Shown here one piece after another: positions 7,518-58,873 of a stretch of DNA of 64,000 nt. Under the pieces are notes generated by a model. The model ran no database searches and was not told the DNA's origin. It worked only from the letters and a program-made list of their open reading frames with translations. The translations under genes were made by a program, and so were the position numbers. The stretch is from Chitinophagaceae bacterium (GTDB lineage Bacteria > Bacteroidota > Bacteroidia > Chitinophagales > Chitinophagaceae), in assembly GCA_019752045.1 (NCBI GenBank), contig JAIEMP010000001.1:1-64000 (forward strand), read 5' to 3'. How positions within the stretch are numbered: the stretch's first letter is position 1; each line of letters opens with the position of its first letter.

Positions 7518-8606
7518 ATGACCTACGCTAAGCTGATACGCATTTCTTTATTGTTTGCACTGTCTGTTCTTGCCCTTTTTATCTTTTTTATATCAGGGAG
7601 CCCCGACTGGATTGAAAAAAACTATGCGTCCGCTTTTTTTCCAAGGCTTGCGTCTGTCTTACGTTTTTTATTTGGATGGATGCCGTTCAGTCTGGGCGAT
7701 ATTCTCTATTCAATTGTTACCATCAGCATATTGTGGCAGATTGGTAAGTTTTTTGTTCGCCTGTTTCACAAAACAGACAGTTGGGCAAAGAAATTATCTC
7801 CTTTACTAACGGCCGGTCTTATCCTGCTCTTTGTGTATGTTTATTTTTATATGTTTTGGGGATTGAATTATTACCGTAAAGGAATTGAACATCAACTGGC
7901 TTTACAGAACAGTACATTCGATAAACAACAGCTCATTGAGCTAAACCGGGCATTACTGATAAAATTAAATGCAACCAAAGAAATTTGTCTGCAAAAAAAA
8001 GATACGGTGATGAGCAGCGACCGTATGTTTCACTCTTCAGTTGAAGGATACCGTGAGCTCGAAAAGAAATTTTCGTTTATCCGTTACCGGAATGTTTCAT
8101 TAAAACCATCTTTGTTTGGCAGGATTGGTAACTACGTTGGCTTTCAGGGTTATTACAATCCATTTACCGGCGAAGCACAAATAAATACTCATATACCAAA
8201 CTTTGTGCAGCCATTTGTTACCAGTCATGAAATGGCGCACCAAATTGGTTATGCCAGTGAAAGTGAAGCAAATTTTGTGGGGTTTCTTGCCGCCACCCAT
8301 TCGCCCGATACGTTGTTGCAATACTCTGCTTACTTAGATATTTTTTTGTATTCCATTGGCAATTTAAGAGCGGTTGATTCTGTTGCCTCAAAAGAAATTG
8401 GCAAACAATTACATGAAGGCGTAAAAAGAGATATTAGAACAGAACGTGCATTTGCAATGAAACACAGAACTTTTTTACAAAACTGGACCGATGCGTTTTA
8501 TGATTTTTATTTACGCCAAAACCGCCAGCGAAAAGGGATTGAAAGTTATAATGAAGTAACAGGTTGGTTGATTGCATACTGGAAGAAATATGAAAGCAGC
8601 CCCTAA
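7518..8606 (+). CDS. DUF3810 family membrane protein, zinc-protease-like
   Basis: The 362-residue product has three hydrophobic segments in the first 125 residues (about 8-27, 53-75, 95-115). A soluble domain follows with the zinc-protease signature HEMAHQ near residue 240 and a downstream glutamate in SESEANFVGF. This fits DUF3810, an uncharacterised family with a gluzincin-like HExxH. The substrate is unknown. The final codons (AGC AGC CCC TAA) are the first bases of a GC-rich dispersed repeat, so the native C-terminus may have been replaced by a repeat-borne stop. Confidence 0.85.
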   Translation: MTYAKLIRISLLFALSVLALFIFFISGSPDWIEKNYASAFFPRLASVLRFLFGWMPFSLGDILYSIVTISILWQIGKFFVRLFHKTDSWAKKLSPLLTAGLILLFVYVYFYMFWGLNYYRKGIEHQLALQNSTFDKQQLIELNRALLIKLNATKEICLQKKDTVMSSDRMFHSSVEGYRELEKKFSFIRYRNVSLKPSLFGRIGNYVGFQGYYNPFTGEAQINTHIPNFVQPFVTSHEMAHQIGYASESEANFVGFLAATHSPDTLLQYSAYLDIFLYSIGNLRAVDSVASKEIGKQLHEGVKRDIRTERAFAMKHRTFLQNWTDAFYDFYLRQNRQRKGIESYNEVTGWLIAYWKKYESSP

Positions 8607-8672
8607 CTCCCCGTCCGAACCGGTTCATCCGGGCGGGCTTCTCTTTCCCCGAAGGAGAAAGAGCGGTACTTT
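8598..8672. repeat. Composite stop-side repeat with a CGTCCG module
   Basis: AGCCCCTAACTCCC is followed by a CGTCCG...CCGGGCGGG hairpin and then CTTCTC...GAAGGAGAAAGAG. The same arrangement occurs inside mtaB at 18429-18507, and the CGTCCG module alone occurs at 57690-57724. It overlaps the last codons of the DUF3810 gene. The rest of 8673-8783 holds no gene. Confidence 0.7.
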
Positions 8673-17817: not shown

Positions 17818-19176
17818 ATGGCAGCAGCAAAATCAGTCGCATTTCACACACTCGGTTGTAAACTCAACTACTCCGAAACCTCCACCATCAGTCGCCTGAT
17901 GGAAAAAGAAGGTTTTGAGAAGAGAGAGTTTGATGACCTGGCCGATGTATATGTGATCAACACCTGCTCTGTTACTGATAATGCAGATAAAGAATGTCGT
18001 CAACTTGTTCGTCGTATTCAACGTAAGTCACCGGAGAGTTTAGTGGTAATCACCGGATGCTATGCACAACTTAAACCAAAAGAAATTGCAGCAATACCCG
18101 GTGTTGATCTGGTGTTGGGTGCTGCAGAAAAATTTAATCTTGCTTCGCATATTAAAGAACTGTCGAAAGGTGATAGCGCAAAGATCAGCAGTTGTGAAAT
18201 TGAAGAAGTGAATGGATTCAATGCATCTTACTCCATCAATGATCGTACACGTACATTTTTAAAAGTACAGGATGGTTGCGATTATACCTGTTCGTTCTGC
18301 ACCATTCCGCAGGCTCGTGGTAAAAGCAGAAGCGATACTGTGGCGAATGTAATTGCCAACGCCAAAGAAATTGCTGCAGGCGGCAGTAAAGAAATTGTGT
18401 TGACGGGTGTAAACCTTGGTGATTTCCGAAGCCCCCTCCAAACCCCGTCCGACCCAATCATCCGGGCGGGCTCCCCCCGAGGGGGAGACTTAGCAAGCCT
18501 CCGATTATTTAAAGATCATAACTTTTTATACCTTATTAAAGAATTAGATAAGGTTGAGGGTATTGAACGTTTCCGCATCTCTTCCATTGAACCCAACCTG
18601 CTCACCAACGAGATCATTGAGTTTGTAAGCAAGAGTAAAAAGTTCATGCCGCATTTTCATATTCCGTTACAAAGCGGAAGCAATACCATATTAGGTATGA
18701 TGCGCCGCCGTTACAAACGTGAATTGTATACCGAACGAGTTGCACTCATTAAAGAGCTGATGCCGCATTGCTGTATTGGCGTAGATGTGATTGCAGGTTT
18801 CCCCGGCGAAACAGATGAACTGTTTCAGGAAACATTTGAGTTCCTGCATTCACTGGATGTATCGTATCTCCATGTGTTCACTTATTCTGAACGGGATAAC
18901 ACACATGCATTAACACTTGGTCCGGTTGTGCCGATGACCACCCGCTACGAACGTAACAAAACACTCCGAAATCTTTCTTACATGAAGATGCAATACTTTA
19001 CACAGCAACATACAGGCGAAACAAGACCTGTGTTGTTTGAAGGACATAGCAAGAATGCCCGCCTGAACGAATCATTCGGGCAGGGTATGATGGAAGGTTA
19101 TACCGATAACTATATTAAGATCACAACGCCTTACAAAGAAGAGTGGGTAAATGAGATTGTGGATTGGAAGATATAG
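17818..19176 (+). CDS. mtaB: tRNA t6A37 methylthiotransferase MtaB
   Basis: This 452-residue radical-SAM enzyme adds a methylthio group to t6A37 of tRNAs reading ANN codons. The N-terminal MTTase domain has cluster cysteines in HTLGCKLNYSE, NTCSVT and ITGCYAQ. The radical-SAM motif CDYTCSFCTIP is near residue 154. The C-terminal TRAM-like tail begins near 380. After GVNLGDF (residues 197-203), an unusual stretch of about 26 residues (204-229) is encoded by a GC-rich dispersed repeat read in frame. The downstream sequence resumes normally with FLYLIKELDKVEGIERFRIS. The start codon follows a near-leaderless promoter. Confidence 0.93.
   Translation: MAAAKSVAFHTLGCKLNYSETSTISRLMEKEGFEKREFDDLADVYVINTCSVTDNADKECRQLVRRIQRKSPESLVVITGCYAQLKPKEIAAIPGVDLVLGAAEKFNLASHIKELSKGDSAKISSCEIEEVNGFNASYSINDRTRTFLKVQDGCDYTCSFCTIPQARGKSRSDTVANVIANAKEIAAGGSKEIVLTGVNLGDFRSPLQTPSDPIIRAGSPRGGDLASLRLFKDHNFLYLIKELDKVEGIERFRISSIEPNLLTNEIIEFVSKSKKFMPHFHIPLQSGSNTILGMMRRRYKRELYTERVALIKELMPHCCIGVDVIAGFPGETDELFQETFEFLHSLDVSYLHVFTYSERDNTHALTLGPVVPMTTRYERNKTLRNLSYMKMQYFTQQHTGETRPVLFEGHSKNARLNESFGQGMMEGYTDNYIKITTPYKEEWVNEIVDWKI
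18429..18507 (+). repeat. Dispersed palindromic repeat inserted in frame in mtaB
   Basis: AAGCCCCCTCCAAACCC, then CGTCCG...CCGGGCGGG, then CTCCCCCCGAGGGGGAG. This is the same composite order as the intergenic copy at 8598-8672. It is open in the mtaB frame and encodes a Pro/Ser/Arg/Gly-rich insertion between two conserved blocks. Confidence 0.8.
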
Positions 19177-21904: not shown

Positions 21905-21939
21905 CAGTCCTCCCCTTCCGGGGGAGTTAGAGGGGGCTT
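21905..21939. repeat. Stop-side palindromic repeat after sufS
   Basis: GTCCTCCCCTTCCGGGGGAG plus TTAGAGGGGGCTT ends directly at the sufS stop codon. About 110 bp of AT-rich DNA separates it from the start-side repeat at 21744. Confidence 0.7.
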
Positions 21940-23181
21940 CTATCTCAACAAATTAATCGCTTTGTTTAAAGCATTTATCATCACATCAATTTCATCTTTG
22001 GTATTGTACATCGCAAAACTTGCTCTTGTGGTGCCGGGAATACCAAAGCGGTTCATTAACGGTTGCGTACAATGGTGACCTGTGCGTACCGCCACACCTT
22101 GATTATCCAACAGAATACCTAAGTCCTGCGGATGAACACCTTCCACTACAAATGATGCAACACTTACTTTTTGCTTTGCTGTACCGATCAAACGGATACC
22201 ATCAATGTTTTGTAATTCTTCTGTTGCATATCGTAACAGTTCATCTTCGTGCATGCGAATCTGTTTCTTACCGATGCGTTGCACAAAATCAATCGCTGCT
22301 TTTAATGCAACGGTATCTGCAATATTGGGTGTACCTGCTTCGAACTTGTAAGGCAACTCGTTCCAGGTTGTTTTTTCAAACGAAACATCTTTGATCATTT
22401 CGCCACCACCCATGAACGGTGGCATAGCTTCAAGTAATGCTCGTTTACCATACAACACACCAATACCTGTTGGGCCATATACTTTGTGTGAACTGATGGC
22501 GAAGAAATCACAATCGAGTTCCTGTACATCAATATCCAAGTGTACAGTTGATTGTGCCCCATCAAGCATTACAATTGCTCCAATCTTATGTGCTGAATCA
22601 ATTATTTCTTTTACGGGATTGATGGTACCAAGTGAATTAGATGCATGCACCACAGAAACCAGCTTCACTTTTTCGTTCAGCAGTTTGTGAAATTCATCCA
22701 TCATCAATTCTCCGTTATCATCAACGGGAATTACTTTCAACTTTGCACCTGTCATTTCAGTGATCAATTGCCAGGGAACAATATTGCTGTGGTGTTCCAT
22801 GCCACTAATGAGGATCTCATCACCCGCTTTCAGATTTGTTCTGGCCCATGTATACGCAACGAGGTTGATGCTTTCAGTTACGCCTCTTGTGAAAATAATT
22901 TCTTCACGTTGATTGGCGTTGATGAATTGCTGCACCGTATCTCTTGTTGCTTCATAAGCAGCCGTTGCTTCTTCAGCCAAGGAGTGAATGCCACGGTGAA
23001 TATTCGCATTAAAATATTGATAGTAGCCAGTTAACGCATCGATCACTTCAACAGGCTTCTGTGTAGTGGCTGCATTATCAAAATAAACCAAAGGCTTTCC
23101 TTTTACCTCACGCTTCAATATCGGAAAGTGTCTTCTTACCTGATCTACATCAAATGCAGTATGTAATGATGTTGCTTGCAT
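21940..23181 (-). CDS. sufS: Cysteine desulfurase SufS
   Basis: This 413-residue class V aminotransferase-fold PLP enzyme has AATTQKP near residue 37 and the PLP lysine in ISSHKVYGPTGIGVLYG near residue 230. The catalytic cysteine is in VRTGHHCTQPLMNRF near residue 365, in the short-loop group II arrangement. GTPNIA and TRAS motifs are present. It mobilises sulfur from cysteine and hands it to SufE. It is fourth in the operon and separated from sufD by a long perfect inverted repeat. Confidence 0.96.
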   Translation of the reverse strand: MQATSLHTAFDVDQVRRHFPILKREVKGKPLVYFDNAATTQKPVEVIDALTGYYQYFNANIHRGIHSLAEEATAAYEATRDTVQQFINANQREEIIFTRGVTESINLVAYTWARTNLKAGDEILISGMEHHSNIVPWQLITEMTGAKLKVIPVDDNGELMMDEFHKLLNEKVKLVSVVHASNSLGTINPVKEIIDSAHKIGAIVMLDGAQSTVHLDIDVQELDCDFFAISSHKVYGPTGIGVLYGKRALLEAMPPFMGGGEMIKDVSFEKTTWNELPYKFEAGTPNIADTVALKAAIDFVQRIGKKQIRMHEDELLRYATEELQNIDGIRLIGTAKQKVSVASFVVEGVHPQDLGILLDNQGVAVRTGHHCTQPLMNRFGIPGTTRASFAMYNTKDEIDVMINALNKAINLLR

Positions 23182-24785: not shown

Positions 24786-24825
24786 GTCCTCCCCCTTCGG
24801 GGGAGTTAGAGGGGGCTTTCTACTT
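24786..24825. repeat. Stop-side palindromic repeat after sufC
   Basis: CCTCCCCC-TTC-GGGGGAG followed by TTAGAGGGGGC; close match to the copies after sufS and sufB. It runs into the last codons or stop of sufC near 24806-24825; the flanking AT-rich DNA to 24703 has no gene. Confidence 0.65.
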
Positions 24826-25576
24826 CTTCTCCCAATTCTTCTTTAATGAAATCGTATCCTTTTTCTTCCAGTTCGAGTGCTAATTCTTTACCACCTGTTT
24901 TTACAATACGTCCTTTGTAGAGAATGTGTACATAATCAGGAACAATATAATCGAGCAAACGCTGGTAGTGCGTAATCACCAATGTGGCGTTGTCTTTTGA
25001 TTTGAGTTTGTTTACACCTTCTGCAACAATACGAAGGGCGTCAATATCCAAACCACTATCTGTTTCATCAAGTATAGCAAGCTTTGGTTCAAGCATCGCC
25101 ATCTGGAAAATTTCGTTGCGTTTCTTTTCACCGCCGCTGAAGCCTTCGTTCAATGAACGGCTTAACAACGCCTGGTCAATATTCACAAGCTTCATTCTTT
25201 CTTTCATCAACTTCAAGAAAGCAACTGCATCCATTGGTTCTTCACCACGATACTTGCGAATTTCATTCACCGCTGTTTTTACAAAGTTGGTAGTACTTAC
25301 ACCGGGCATTTCAATCGGATATTGAAATGCAAGGAACACACCTTCACGTGCACGATCTTCTGGAGAAAGTTCTAACAGATCTTTTCCTAAGAATTCAACA
25401 CTACCGGCGGTTACTTCATAATCAGCACGACCAGCCAATACAGAAGCCAATGTTGACTTACCGCTACCGTTTGGCCCCATGATGGCATGTACTTCGCCTG
25501 GTTTAATATCGAGGTTGATGCCTTTTAAGATTTCCTTCTCTTCGATACGAGCTTGTAGATTTTTAATACTTAACAT
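24806..25576 (-). CDS. sufC: Fe-S cluster assembly ATPase SufC
   Basis: The 256-residue ABC-type ATPase has Walker A GPNGSGKST at residues 34-42 and Q-loop FQYPIEMPG. The signature region FSGGEKKRNEI and Walker B ILDETDSGLDIDAL follow, with the switch histidine in VITHYQRLLDYI. It binds SufB and SufD and energises the scaffold. The C-terminal ELEEKGYDFIKEELGEEVES is partly within the stop-side repeat, whose GGGGG tract encodes part of the ending. Start at 25576 gives the normal N-terminus MLSIKNLQA. Confidence 0.96.
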   Translation of the reverse strand: MLSIKNLQARIEEKEILKGINLDIKPGEVHAIMGPNGSGKSTLASVLAGRADYEVTAGSVEFLGKDLLELSPEDRAREGVFLAFQYPIEMPGVSTTNFVKTAVNEIRKYRGEEPMDAVAFLKLMKERMKLVNIDQALLSRSLNEGFSGGEKKRNEIFQMAMLEPKLAILDETDSGLDIDALRIVAEGVNKLKSKDNATLVITHYQRLLDYIVPDYVHILYKGRIVKTGGKELALELEEKGYDFIKEELGEEVESPL

Positions 25577-25826: not shown

Positions 25827-25862
25827 AAGTCTCCCCTCCGGGGAGATTTAGAGGGGCCGGCT
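25827..25862. repeat. Stop-side palindromic repeat after sufB
   Basis: GTCTCCCC-TCC-GGGGAGATTTAGAGGGGCC, running up to the sufB stop codon. With the unit at 25584 it brackets an AT-rich spacer that holds no gene. Confidence 0.7.
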
Positions 25863-27308
25863 TTACCCCACACTTCCTTCTAATGAAATTGCCAACAGTT
25901 TCTGTGCTTCCACAGCAAACTCCATCGGTAATTGGTTCATCACTTCTTTGGCAAAACCATTTATGATTAATGCAACGGCAGTTTCTGTATCGAGACCACG
26001 TTGATTGCAGTAGAATATCTGGTCTTCACCAATTTTTGAAGTGGTTGCTTCATGCTCTACCTGTGCAGTGCTATTCTTTACTTCAATGTAAGGGAAGGTG
26101 TGTGCGCCGCATTTATCACCAAGCAACAAACTATCACACTGTGAAAAGTTTCTTGCATTAACAGCGTTCTTACCAACCTGCACCAAACCACGATAAGAGT
26201 TTTGACTGAAGCCTGCAGAAATACCTTTCGATACAATGCGACTTCTCGTGTTCTTACCAATATGCATCATCTTGGTACCGGTATCCGCTTGCTGATGATT
26301 GTTTGTAACAGCAACAGAATAAAATTCACCTTGACTGTTATCACCTTTTAAAATAACGGAAGGATATTTCCATGTAACAGCGCTGCCTGTTTCAACCTGC
26401 GTCCAACTGATCTTTGAATTTACACCTGCACAAATACCACGCTTGGTAACAAAGTTGTAGATACCACCTTTGCCTTCTTTATCTCCGGGGTACCAGTTTT
26501 GAACGGTTGAATATTTTACTTCTGCATTATCGAGTGCTACAATTTCAACCACAGCAGCATGCAATTGATTTTCGTCACGCATGGGTGCTGTGCAACCTTC
26601 GAGGTAACTTACAAAGCTGCCTTCTTCAGCAACAATCAATGTACGTTCAAACTGTCCCGTGTTTTCGGCATTAATACGGAAGTAAGTGCTTAACTCCATC
26701 GGACTTTTTACACCTTTTGGAATGTAGCAGAAACTACCATCGCTGAACACAGCGCTATTTAAAGCTGAGAAATAATTATCTGTCATCGGAACAACTGAAC
26801 CCAACCATTTTTTTATCAATTCCGGATGTTCCTGCACCGCTTCGCTCATGCTGCAGAAAATAATACCGAGCTCGGCTAATTCTTTTTTAAATGTTGTTGC
26901 AATAGAAACCGAGTCGATCACCGCATCCACGGCCACATTGCTCAAACGTTTTTGTTCATCCAACGAAATGCCGAGCTTTTCAAACGTAGCCCGCAATTCA
27001 GGGTCTACCTCGTCTAAACTGTTGAGGGTTTTCTTTTGCTTGGGGGCGCTGTAATATTTAATGGCGTTGTAATCTACCTTGGGATACTTCACATTGGCCC
27101 ATTCAGGCTCGGACATTTTTAACCAATGACGGTAGGCTTTGAGTCGCCACTCGAGCATCCACTCGGGTTCGTTCTTTTTGGCGCTGATGAAACGCACAAT
27201 GTCTTCGTTCAGTCCGGGAGGTGCCTCGTCGGCTTCAATGTCGGTTACCCAACCATACTTGTACTCACTCAGGGCCGTTTGCTCCAGTGTATTGAGCATC
27301 TCACTCAT
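25863..27308 (-). CDS. sufB: Fe-S cluster assembly protein SufB
   Basis: The 481-residue core scaffold protein has the SufB N-terminal region ([16 protein letters not shown] near residue 51) and the beta-helix core. [20 protein letters not shown] near residue 237 contains the conserved cluster-site cysteine. The C-terminal [30 protein letters not shown] and [21 protein letters not shown] motifs are present. SufB is the site where clusters are built with SufC and SufD. It is the first gene of the operon, so expression depends on the promoter at 27355-27400. Confidence 0.97.
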
Positions 27309-56379: not shown

Positions 56380-57537
56380 CTACTCCGCCCAACTCATCAC
56401 ATAATTTCCATTTTCAATTTCCAGCGCCTGTTTCGTAAGCATCAACGGACGGAAGGTATCTACCATCACTGCTAATTCTTTGGTTTCTTTTTTGCCAATA
56501 CTTTTTTCAACAGCACCGGGATGTGGCCCATGTGGTATGCCTGCAGGATGCAAGGTGATCATGCCTCTTGTTACATTCTTACGACTCATAAAATCGCCGT
56601 CTACATAGTAAATCACTTCATCACTATCAATATTGCTGTGGTTATATGGAGCAGGGATAGCGTTTGGATGATAATCGTATAACCTCGGTACAAAGGAACA
56701 AACGACAAAGGCATTGGTCTCGAATGTTTGATGCACAGGTGGCGGCTGATGTACCCTACCGGTGATGGGTTCAAAATCATGAATAGAAAAAATATACGGA
56801 TAGCAGCAACCATCCCATCCCACCACATCAAACGGATGTGTACCATAATGCAAACCGTATAACATTCCTTTCTTCTTGGCCCTGATTAAAAAATCGCCCT
56901 GCTCATCATGTGTTTTAAGATCCTGCGGTGTTCTGATATCCCGTTCACAATAAGGCGCATGCTCCATCAACTGACCAAACTTACTCATATAACGTTTGGG
57001 ATAACGGAGCGGCGTAAACGACTCAACAATAAACAAACGATTCTTCTCATCATTGAATTCAATCTGATAAATAGTTCCTCTGGGCAACACGATATAATCG
57101 CCATAACCAAACGGCAATTCTCCGTATTGTGTTTTAACAGTTCCACTTCCTTCGTGAACAAAAATCATTTCATCTGCATCTGTATTTTTATAGAAATAAT
57201 TCGTTGTTCCACTGGTTGGTGCAGCTAATACAATATGGCAATCGTTGTTAACCAGCACCGGCACACGGCTTTTTAAAAACTCTCCGCCCGGTTTTAGATT
57301 GAATCCTTCAAAACAACGATGCTGCAGCATTTTCTCTTCTGCAATAATGGGACTCACATCAATCTGCGGTTCTGTTTTAATAATCTGTGTTGGGGGATGG
57401 CAATGATAAAGCAACGAATAATCATCACTGAATCCTTCAGTTGAAAATAATTGTTCGCTATACAATCCACCATCGGGCTTGCGGAACTGAGTGTGGCGTT
57501 TGTGGGGGATAGTCCCTAATGTATAATAATGTGGCAT
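56380..57537 (-). CDS. hmgA: Homogentisate 1,2-dioxygenase
   Basis: The 385-residue cupin-type iron dioxygenase opens homogentisate to maleylacetoacetate in tyrosine and phenylalanine breakdown. Recognisable parts are MIFVHEGSGTVKTQYGELPFGYGDYIVLPRGTIYQ near residue 130 and FEPITGRVHQPPPVHQTFETNAFVVCSF in the second half. HNSNIDSDEVIYYVDGDFMSR and the C-terminal LHPAGIPHGPHPGA carry iron-ligand histidines. No other pathway gene is adjacent. Confidence 0.92.
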   Translation of the reverse strand: MPHYYTLGTIPHKRHTQFRKPDGGLYSEQLFSTEGFSDDYSLLYHCHPPTQIIKTEPQIDVSPIIAEEKMLQHRCFEGFNLKPGGEFLKSRVPVLVNNDCHIVLAAPTSGTTNYFYKNTDADEMIFVHEGSGTVKTQYGELPFGYGDYIVLPRGTIYQIEFNDEKNRLFIVESFTPLRYPKRYMSKFGQLMEHAPYCERDIRTPQDLKTHDEQGDFLIRAKKKGMLYGLHYGTHPFDVVGWDGCCYPYIFSIHDFEPITGRVHQPPPVHQTFETNAFVVCSFVPRLYDYHPNAIPAPYNHSNIDSDEVIYYVDGDFMSRKNVTRGMITLHPAGIPHGPHPGAVEKSIGKKETKELAVMVDTFRPLMLTKQALEIENGNYVMSWAE

Positions 57538-57689: not shown

Positions 57690-57724
57690 ACTTCCCCGTC
57701 CGAACGGTTCATCCGGGCGGGCAC
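57690..57724. repeat. CGTCCG palindromic module
   Basis: CTTCCCCGTCCGAACGG followed by TTCATCCGGGCGGGC. The same module is embedded in the repeats at 8598 and 18429. It lies in the 352-bp spacer between hmgA and the bestrophin gene, which otherwise holds only a possible -7 box (CATCTTTG near 57814) and AT-rich sequence. Confidence 0.7.
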
Positions 57725-57889: not shown

Positions 57890-58873
57890 ATGCACGCCGG
57901 TAATCAATACTCACTGAAAGAATTTATTGTATGGACTAGAAGAGACATTTATGCATTGTTTTTTCTTGCTGTTGTGCCTACCATTCTGTTCCAGTTATTC
58001 AACTGGCACTGGCTGGCGATTCCATGGGTACCCATTGCAATGATTGGTACAGCAGCAGCTTTTATTGTTGGCTTTAAAAATACACAAACCTATAACCGTT
58101 TATGGGAAGCCCGTCAAATCTACGGTGCAATTGTAAACAGCAGTCGTTCATGGGGTGTGATGGCCAGAGATTTTGTAAAAGATCCTGCTGCACAAAAAAT
58201 ACTCATCTACCGGCATATTGCCTGGCTAACGGCTTTGCGTTTTCAACTAAGAGAATCGAGAAAATGGGAGAACACGGAAAAGAAATATAACATTGAATAC
58301 AAGCGTTTTTATATAATACCTGAAAAAGAAAGTAATCTTGAAGCAGAGTTGAAAGCATTGATATCTGAACAAGATGCAACCTATGTGCTGCAGAAAAAAA
58401 ACCGTGCTACTCAACTCATCAGTTTACAATCGTTGCATCTGAAACAACTGAAAGAAGCGGGCAACATTGAACCGTTGAATTATATTGAGCTGCAGAACAT
58501 GCTGGTTAACCTGTATGAACAGCAGGGCAAATGCGAACGGATCAAAAACTTTCCTTACCCCCGGCAATTTGCATCCATCAACAAATTTTTTATTGTTCTC
58601 TTTATCAGTATTGTACCTTTTGGTTTACTGAATGAGTTTCAGAAAATGGGCGAACATTATGTATGGCTCAACATCCCCTTCAGCATGGTTGTATGCTGGG
58701 TTTTTTCTTCAATGGAACGTGTAGGTGAAGCAACTGAAAATCCGTTTGAAGGTGGCGCCAACGATGTGCCTATTACAGCACTGAGCCGAACCATAGAAAT
58801 TGATTTACGGGAAATGCTGGATGAAACTGAACTGCCTTCTGCCTTACAGCCCATCAATAATATATTAATGTAA
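57890..58873 (+). CDS. Bestrophin family ion channel
   Basis: The 327-residue protein of the bestrophin/UPF0187 family has TM helices near residues 20-40 and 45-65. TYNRLWEARQIYGAIVNSSRSWGVMARD follows, the pore-neck region. A cytoplasmic helical part spans 70-210, then helices near 225-250 and 255-275 (FPYPRQFASINKFFIVLFISIVPFG). It ends in NPFEGGANDVPITALSRTIEIDLRE. Family members are anion or cation channels forming pentamers. Confidence 0.88.
   Translation: MHAGNQYSLKEFIVWTRRDIYALFFLAVVPTILFQLFNWHWLAIPWVPIAMIGTAAAFIVGFKNTQTYNRLWEARQIYGAIVNSSRSWGVMARDFVKDPAAQKILIYRHIAWLTALRFQLRESRKWENTEKKYNIEYKRFYIIPEKESNLEAELKALISEQDATYVLQKKNRATQLISLQSLHLKQLKEAGNIEPLNYIELQNMLVNLYEQQGKCERIKNFPYPRQFASINKFFIVLFISIVPFGLLNEFQKMGEHYVWLNIPFSMVVCWVFSSMERVGEATENPFEGGANDVPITALSRTIEIDLREMLDETELPSALQPINNILM

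Follow-up and report, generated by a model that had tools for sequence, protein, structure and literature searches.

To judge from its sequence, the mtaB gene of this Chitinophagaceae genome is the site of three separate in-frame repeat insertions: a C module, a 27-bp A element nested within it, and a 27-bp B element. We consider it very probable that the gene was invaded three times by two short palindromic DNA families, that the inserts were retained, and that the C module derives from an element of the DUF559 endonuclease type. The gene lies in a 64,000-nucleotide stretch of contig JAIEMP010000001.1 (positions 1 to 64,000; hereafter the window), part of a 4.16 Mb draft genome in 29 contigs (G000).

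MtaB was identified from the ORF list, a match to the NCBIfam equivalog TIGR01579 (397.4 bits against a cut-off of 357.05), the Pfam domains UPF0004 and Radical_SAM, and its orthologues. The ORF stays open across the repeat stretch at 18430-18507, and the features of the gene are as follows:

17818 to 19176, forward strand: mtaB, tRNA t6A37 methylthiotransferase, 452 aa
18430 to 18507, forward strand: C module (18430-18444 and 18472-18507) split by the A element, residues 205-230
18445 to 18471, reverse strand: A element, 27 bp, nested in the C module, read as PSDPIIRAG, residues 210-218
19057 to 19083, forward strand: B element, 27 bp, read as ARLNESFGQ, residues 414-422, directly before Gly423

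The original prediction had taken the first stretch for a composite of two repeat modules, and this reading stands: the C module, consisting of AGCCCCCTCCAAACC and then TCCCCCCGAGGGGGAGACTTAGCAAGCCTCCGATTA, is interrupted by the A element (CCGTCCGACCCAATCATCCGGGCGGGC). The proposed likeness to a spacer copy near 8598-8672 also holds, as the modules follow the same order in both when compared by eye. The capture of a repeat is real, but what had been described as a single repeat is the product of two events of different age, the older of which replaced native residues. The B element (GCCCGCCTGAACGAATCATTCGGGCAG), which is the same length as the A element and resembles it in sequence, lies near the C-terminus of the protein, with its peptide between HSKN and GMMEGYT, and adds an insertion to those first described.

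We aligned mtaB with 18 relatives, 12 from the same genus and 6 from the same family; no orthologue was found in one further genome of the genus (G004). Both 27-bp elements are absent from their mtaB sites in all 18 relatives, and the C module occurs in only one, the nearest relative G012 (96% amino acid identity). The remaining 17 carry a shorter native loop starting GKG where mtaB has the C module, so an equal-length stretch unlike a repeat is not what the relatives have at this position. Same-genus MtaB matches are 428-429 aa long, the G012 protein is 434 aa and the G000 protein 452 aa. Together with the alignment, these lengths indicate that the C module was swapped for the loop, with a net gain of about 5 aa, and that the A element added 9 aa; the last 9 aa of the excess are the B element. 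About 26 residues (205-230) are repeat-derived, as predicted, but they were not all added, because the net gain over the genus length at this place is only 14 aa (9 from the A element and a net 5 from the C module).

The comparison shows the following events. A C module took the place of the loop after GVNLGDF in the lineage of G000 and G012; an A element then entered this module in the G000 lineage, with no bases lost; and a B element entered before the glycine of KN-GMMEGYT, again with no bases lost. An A element lies immediately upstream of mtaB in G012 (G012:C11:6975), where G000 has none.

The repeat was checked for copies elsewhere in the genome, and both BLAST and pattern searches found them. 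The 79-bp mtaB stretch gave 42 BLAST matches in G000 at E ≤ 10, itself included, and the best of the other copies lies in argB (94% identical over 62 bp). Pattern searches recovered 21 A copies and 53 C modules, with no matches to the reversed-pattern control in either case. Five order-1 Markov shuffles of the window yielded one A/B-like match, with 5 mismatches, while the mtaB elements have 1 and 0. The window holds these further copies:

8598 to 8672, forward strand: spacer copy at the 3' end of ORF 7518-8606, with an A element one base longer (core from 8611) and palindromic flanks
57696 to 57722, reverse strand: A element in the spacer between ORFs 56380-57537 and 57890-58873
21910 to 21935, reverse strand: C module just downstream of the 3' end of ORF 21940-23181 (reverse strand)
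24789 to 24814, reverse strand: C module overlapping the 3' end of ORF 24806-25576 (reverse strand)
25831 to 25856, reverse strand: C module just downstream of the 3' end of ORF 25863-27308 (reverse strand)

A search of a plasmid collection with the 79-bp stretch gave no match, a literature search for the 27-mer strings and for ARPDDPVGR found no paper containing them, and in an Rfam search of the window the threshold was reached by a tRNA only.

Comparison with relatives shows that the 27-bp length of the A insertions is nearly invariant. In each of ten further G000 genes with an A insertion, one or more relatives are shorter by exactly 27 bp, and across 28 gene-relative length comparisons the difference was +27 in 26, +24 in one and +15 in one. 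The A hosts include PheS, TrpE, dihydrolipoyl dehydrogenase, a GalA-like beta-galactosidase, a GH67 enzyme and, at C19:3060, a protein with radical SAM and CofH_C Pfam domains. ArgB, Acs and an ABC exporter, in which the 27-mer is carried inside larger modules, were excluded from the length test. Read from the alignments, 11 of 12 insertion sites (the ten genes plus A and B in mtaB) fall at a GG/CC dinucleotide, the exception being site C4_147; in the window ORFs, 8.2% of positions begin a GG or CC. The orientation of A and B relative to the GG is constant, no host bases are lost, and nothing is duplicated beyond an ambiguous G. From these sequence comparisons we propose that A and B make up a second mobile family, separate from the C modules, whose members would be hairpin-like units inserting at G^G in one fixed orientation. 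The hairpin itself is modest, given uneven fold scores: folded as DNA, five 27-mers had z-scores of -0.23 to -2.26 and were not uniformly better than their shuffles.

It could also be argued that the palindromes are RNA-level elements, such as terminators or mRNA hairpins, that were copied by replication accidents and lie in genes incidentally, with nothing mobile about them. All three strict C modules of the window do sit at 3' ends of ORFs, as terminators would, and RNA folding of the mtaB stretch gives -28.9 kcal/mol (z -1.44), a value equalled or bettered by 14 of 200 shuffles. We regard this explanation as improbable, since gains of 27 bp at GG in so many of the sites, always in one orientation, speak for site-specific insertion rather than slippage, and the A copies in ORFs prefer one coding frame.

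Of the A copies, 22 were placed on ORFs, with a 23rd (C1:152311, 2 mismatches) unplaced. Fifteen lie in ORFs of at least 180 aa, and the one at C17:33773 was dropped as lying upstream of the likely start, leaving 14; the copy at C10:48703, in a 155-aa ORF, is under the size threshold and was not counted. Copies of B in the ORFs of RibD, a presumed NuoL and RimM, and the copy at C13:65648, enter no count. In the RimM gene (G000:C1:384128), one 27-mer is nested within another.

An insert of exactly 27 bp keeps the reading frame, and its effect on the protein depends on how the target GG lies in the codon. With the GG at codon positions 1-2, at the start of a glycine codon, the element reads ARPDDPVGR and would place nine extra hydrophilic residues ahead of the Gly. 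At positions 2-3 it would bring in a TGA stop, and its other placements are open. The copies that survive purifying selection would then be those in spacers, at the ends of genes and in loops that tolerate them. Twelve of the 14 A copies in G000 ORFs are in the ARPDDPVGR frame, against 25-29% expected from the GG/CC phases of the window ORFs (binomial about 1e-5, although copies shared by descent are not independent). The A copy in mtaB, read as PSDPIIRAG, is an exception to this rule. Many of the A/B targets read K-G, N-G or D-G, which may correspond to tight turns.

The same bias extends to public genomes. Among the matches listed, at least 118, in 110 of 113 loci, were placed (contigs of G009, a member of the genus, and near-duplicates are included); the listed records are mainly from Bacteroidota, with some from Planctomycetota and candidate-phylum bins. 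Thirty-nine of the listed matches lie in ORFs of at least 200 aa, and 26 of these 39 are in the ARPDDxVGR frame. In four loci from different records, histidine-kinase-like proteins carry the 27-mer near the C-terminus as VETKE[ARPDDPVGR]GEG. At three loci in Scalindua and Brocadiaceae records, the 27-mer has GTGGATT and GAATC-type stretches next to it and seems to lie within another repeat.

The dominance of one frame in G000 and in 26 of the 39 listed public matches, even though five of the six frames of the A element are open, could mean that the peptides are selected for a function, for instance with ARPDDPVGR forming a loop that tags proteins for binding or processing, and that the elements spread by benefiting host proteins. 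The copies in PheS and TrpE, which sit at the same base in G000 and G009 and are missing from G012, might be taken the same way. The hosts, however, are unrelated enzymes, near relatives do without the copies, and other frames occur, including that of the mtaB A element; the preference for one frame may instead stem from insertion before Gly codons combined with tolerance of a hydrophilic turn. Selection for the peptide is, in our view, very unlikely.

The sites in PheS and TrpE are empty in G012 and in the other members of the genus in which these genes were found (11 other PheS and 12 other TrpE sequences, counting that of G012). The 60 bp upstream of the PheS insert match G009 at 57 positions and G012 at 54, against the trend of other windows, and the upstream window of TrpE matches G009 at 49 of 60 and G012 at 50 of 60. 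It could be that local recombination or repeated insertion, as far as these sequences tell, accounts for the sharing between G000 and G009. The PheS with the insert is the sole PheS match in G000, and aligned to a solved PheS it leaves a 9-residue gap at the insert; its structure model (pLDDT 43.2) was not used as evidence. A draft assembly of 29 contigs invites the thought that the inserts are assembly artefacts or mark pseudogenes, a suggestion we find hardly credible. The mtaB C module, the argB composite and the inserts in acs and leuS recur in G012, those in PheS and TrpE recur in G009, the ORFs are open, and mtaB, pheS and trpE each have one close match in the genome.

Despite its three insertions, mtaB appears from its sequence still to code for an intact enzyme. 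A Pfam scan of MtaB found no Hint or intein domain, and the repeat peptides would be expected to be translated and retained in the enzyme unspliced. In an AlphaFold2 model built from 29 sequences (mean pLDDT 72.4, a moderate value), residues 205-225 have pLDDT below 50 and form a loop between the strand at 192-196 and helices from 225. Residues 411-421, also below 50, lie between strands 402-410 and 424-429, and further stretches outside the insert sites score below 50 as well. The original prediction held that the enzyme tolerates the insertion as a surface loop; the low-confidence loop at 205-225 fits this, and tolerance itself is something we infer from a model of moderate quality.

The C modules are likewise common inside genes. 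All 53 were placed, and 20 lie within ORFs (at least 150 aa, with at least 25 aa on each side), where they most often read SPSGG-xx-EGA. Fifteen in-ORF modules were aligned to G010 and G012, one of the 15 places having no G010 match. Many replace a few native loop residues; G012 often shares the module, and in that genome a different module may occupy the loop. Hosts of C modules or of DUF559 domains presumably include MurC, PurH, TrpF, HemF, ArgC, ArgH, FadB, MetRS, AroC and MetH, names that we read from the sequence.

G000 encodes five DUF559 (PF04480) domains. Two are in frame inside core enzymes, Acs (an 844-aa ORF, G000:C2:122700) and LeuRS (a 1164-aa ORF, G000:C2:339380), and each of these inserts is bracketed by C-like modules, in inverted order and no farther than about 100 bp from the domain. 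A third DUF559 gene is free-standing and has only variant modules, on both sides, and the other two have no full-form C module in the scanned stretch. The ends of the acs and leuS inserts are closely similar to the C module. On the sequences compared, the C module is most likely the end or the internally deleted form of an in-frame, non-splicing, homing-like DUF559 element, a link that draws on three of the five G000 DUF559 genes.

The acs and leuS inserts are filled in G000 and G012 and empty in G010 and G003, so that filled and empty alleles, as expected of a homing element, are both found; this comparison is not applicable to mtaB. A further leuS-like match in G012 (C107, 71% identity) lacks the insert and perhaps comes from contamination, as this assembly is given as 5% contaminated. 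An intein was considered and rejected, as Pfam (E ≤ 1e-5) found DUF559 and host domains, with no Hint or intein model, in the five DUF559-bearing proteins; in Acs and LeuRS, DUF559 is placed between host domains.

The domain occurs in 76 of 147 family genomes. Among the 132 DUF559 matches listed (E ≤ 5.4e-20), the open frame is at least 350 aa in 62, 200-349 aa in 4 and below 200 aa in 66; at least two of the ORFs behind the 62 long frames were counted twice for carrying two domains, and a long frame alone does not prove that a host gene is present. Hosts among the frames read include LeuRS, at two positions, ArgB, with DUF559 on the N-terminal side, and what we take by eye to be MetRS-, AroC- and MetH-like proteins. 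In other genera, where 20 of 29 loci were read and 9 gave no ORF by motif, the DUF559 inserts are flanked by short Pro/Gly/Ser-rich in-frame stretches that differ from the C module. One LeuRS ORF of 1327 aa (G158) contains two DUF559 inserts at different positions, and a type I restriction R subunit (G088) has GIY-YIG and DUF559 in one frame.

These flanks bear both ways on the possibility that the C module is a common repeat with no relation to DUF559, whose genes merely landed between copies of it. Their difference from the C module favors this possibility, as do the 50 of 53 G000 C modules with no DUF559 alongside and the two DUF559 genes lacking a full-form module. Yet the other genera again have short in-frame flanks of the same Pro/Gly/Ser-rich kind, and the modules of acs and leuS lie at both ends, inverted and close to the domain. 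We judge an unrelated repeat unlikely, if well short of negligible, and prefer the derivation from a DUF559 element.

More tentatively, and with less confidence than we would need to call it probable, Chitinophagaceae may harbor a set of selfish elements made up of non-splicing DUF559 homing inserts in the frames of core enzymes, their C-module relics and the 27-bp G^G family. If so, the DUF559 element would spread by cutting empty alleles of LeuRS, Acs and other core enzymes, and end modules that were left behind or moved on their own would occupy about twenty ORFs in G000, with the mtaB module as one such relic. The 27-bp family, entering at G^G before glycine codons, would give proteins nine-residue turns. 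Between them, these elements would provide the housekeeping enzymes of a bacterium outside Rickettsia with an ongoing natural supply of new loops and domains.

Two known endonuclease systems resemble the DUF559 inserts in part. VsrA of Caulobacter shares the Pfam domain PF04480 with the Acs/LeuRS insert, but it is a predicted mismatch-repair enzyme with its own gene, whereas DUF559 here lies inside host enzymes between palindromic modules (PMC12907096). The ShiLan domain of a phage methylase is an open in-frame insert with an endonuclease and no intein or intron features. There, however, the HNH endonuclease is in another frame, while DUF559 is in the host's own frame and has palindromic ends and many solo relatives (PMC11855218).

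Among repeat families, the CGTC- and GTAG-tagged REPs are palindromes of 20-40 bp in spacers and genes of several species, the CGTC type also in Bacteroidetes (PMC3733652). The CGTC REP is described with an unpaired terminal CGTC, a stem of 8-9 bp, a loop of 4-5 nt and a CCA tail, and on this description we rejected that class: here the CGTC is part of the stem, the loop exceeds 4-5 nt and the CCA tail is lacking (PMC3733652). The main text of that paper has no match to CCGTCCG or Chitinophaga. A RAYT (Y1 transposase) as a flanked partner is not supported, as no flanking 27-mer was found at any of the 8 Y1 loci of G000 or among the 35 Y1 loci scanned in all. Numbers of Y1 genes do not track those of the 27-mer (G002 has 7 Y1 matches and 0 A copies). 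Two clearly different Y1 genes, G000:C6:255936 and G009:C92, nevertheless contain a 27-mer at one and the same position, ahead of IDVFTR, where it brings in an in-frame TGA. The empty site in this case was deduced and not read from a comparison, and this pair may reflect a link between Y1 and the 27-mer. As to the features of MITEs, the units are palindromic, duplication stops at the ambiguous G, and no transposase was found among the Y1 loci scanned.

The original prediction had pointed to palindromic elements of Rickettsia inserted in protein genes, and the parallel is apt, as repeat copies inside ORFs are frequent here too. Such elements were reportedly described by Ogata in 2000 and 2002, and Rickettsia genomes are decaying. 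In both cases, palindromic repeats occur in spacers and in frame within unrelated protein genes. The Rickettsia palindromic elements (RPEs) are palindromes of about 150 bp, each coding a conserved peptide, found in spacers and in unrelated metabolic genes (PMC10969869), whereas A and B measure exactly 27 bp and the C module some 45 bp. Length does not define all RPEs, since RPE-4 and RPE-6 are equated with short CGTC repeats (PMC3733652). The elements described here differ further in that their host is a member of the Chitinophagaceae, in another phylum, and not Rickettsia, that A/B have a GG target, and that C-like modules also bound an endonuclease insert. Because the structure of the CGTC REP is not found and the host is not Rickettsia, we regard these elements as working like RPEs and intragenic REPs and class them as neither. 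For annotation, ARPDDPVGR(G) and SPSGG-xx-EGA should be read as marks of insertion and not as conserved motifs. Protein-coding palindromes have been discussed above all for Rickettsia (PMC10969869); here they lie in core enzymes of a 4.2 Mb Chitinophagaceae genome, with exact empty sites in near relatives, a GG target and a frame rule, which together make the insertion of hairpin-like DNA, the tolerance of nine-residue turns and non-splicing homing in essential genes open to experiment.
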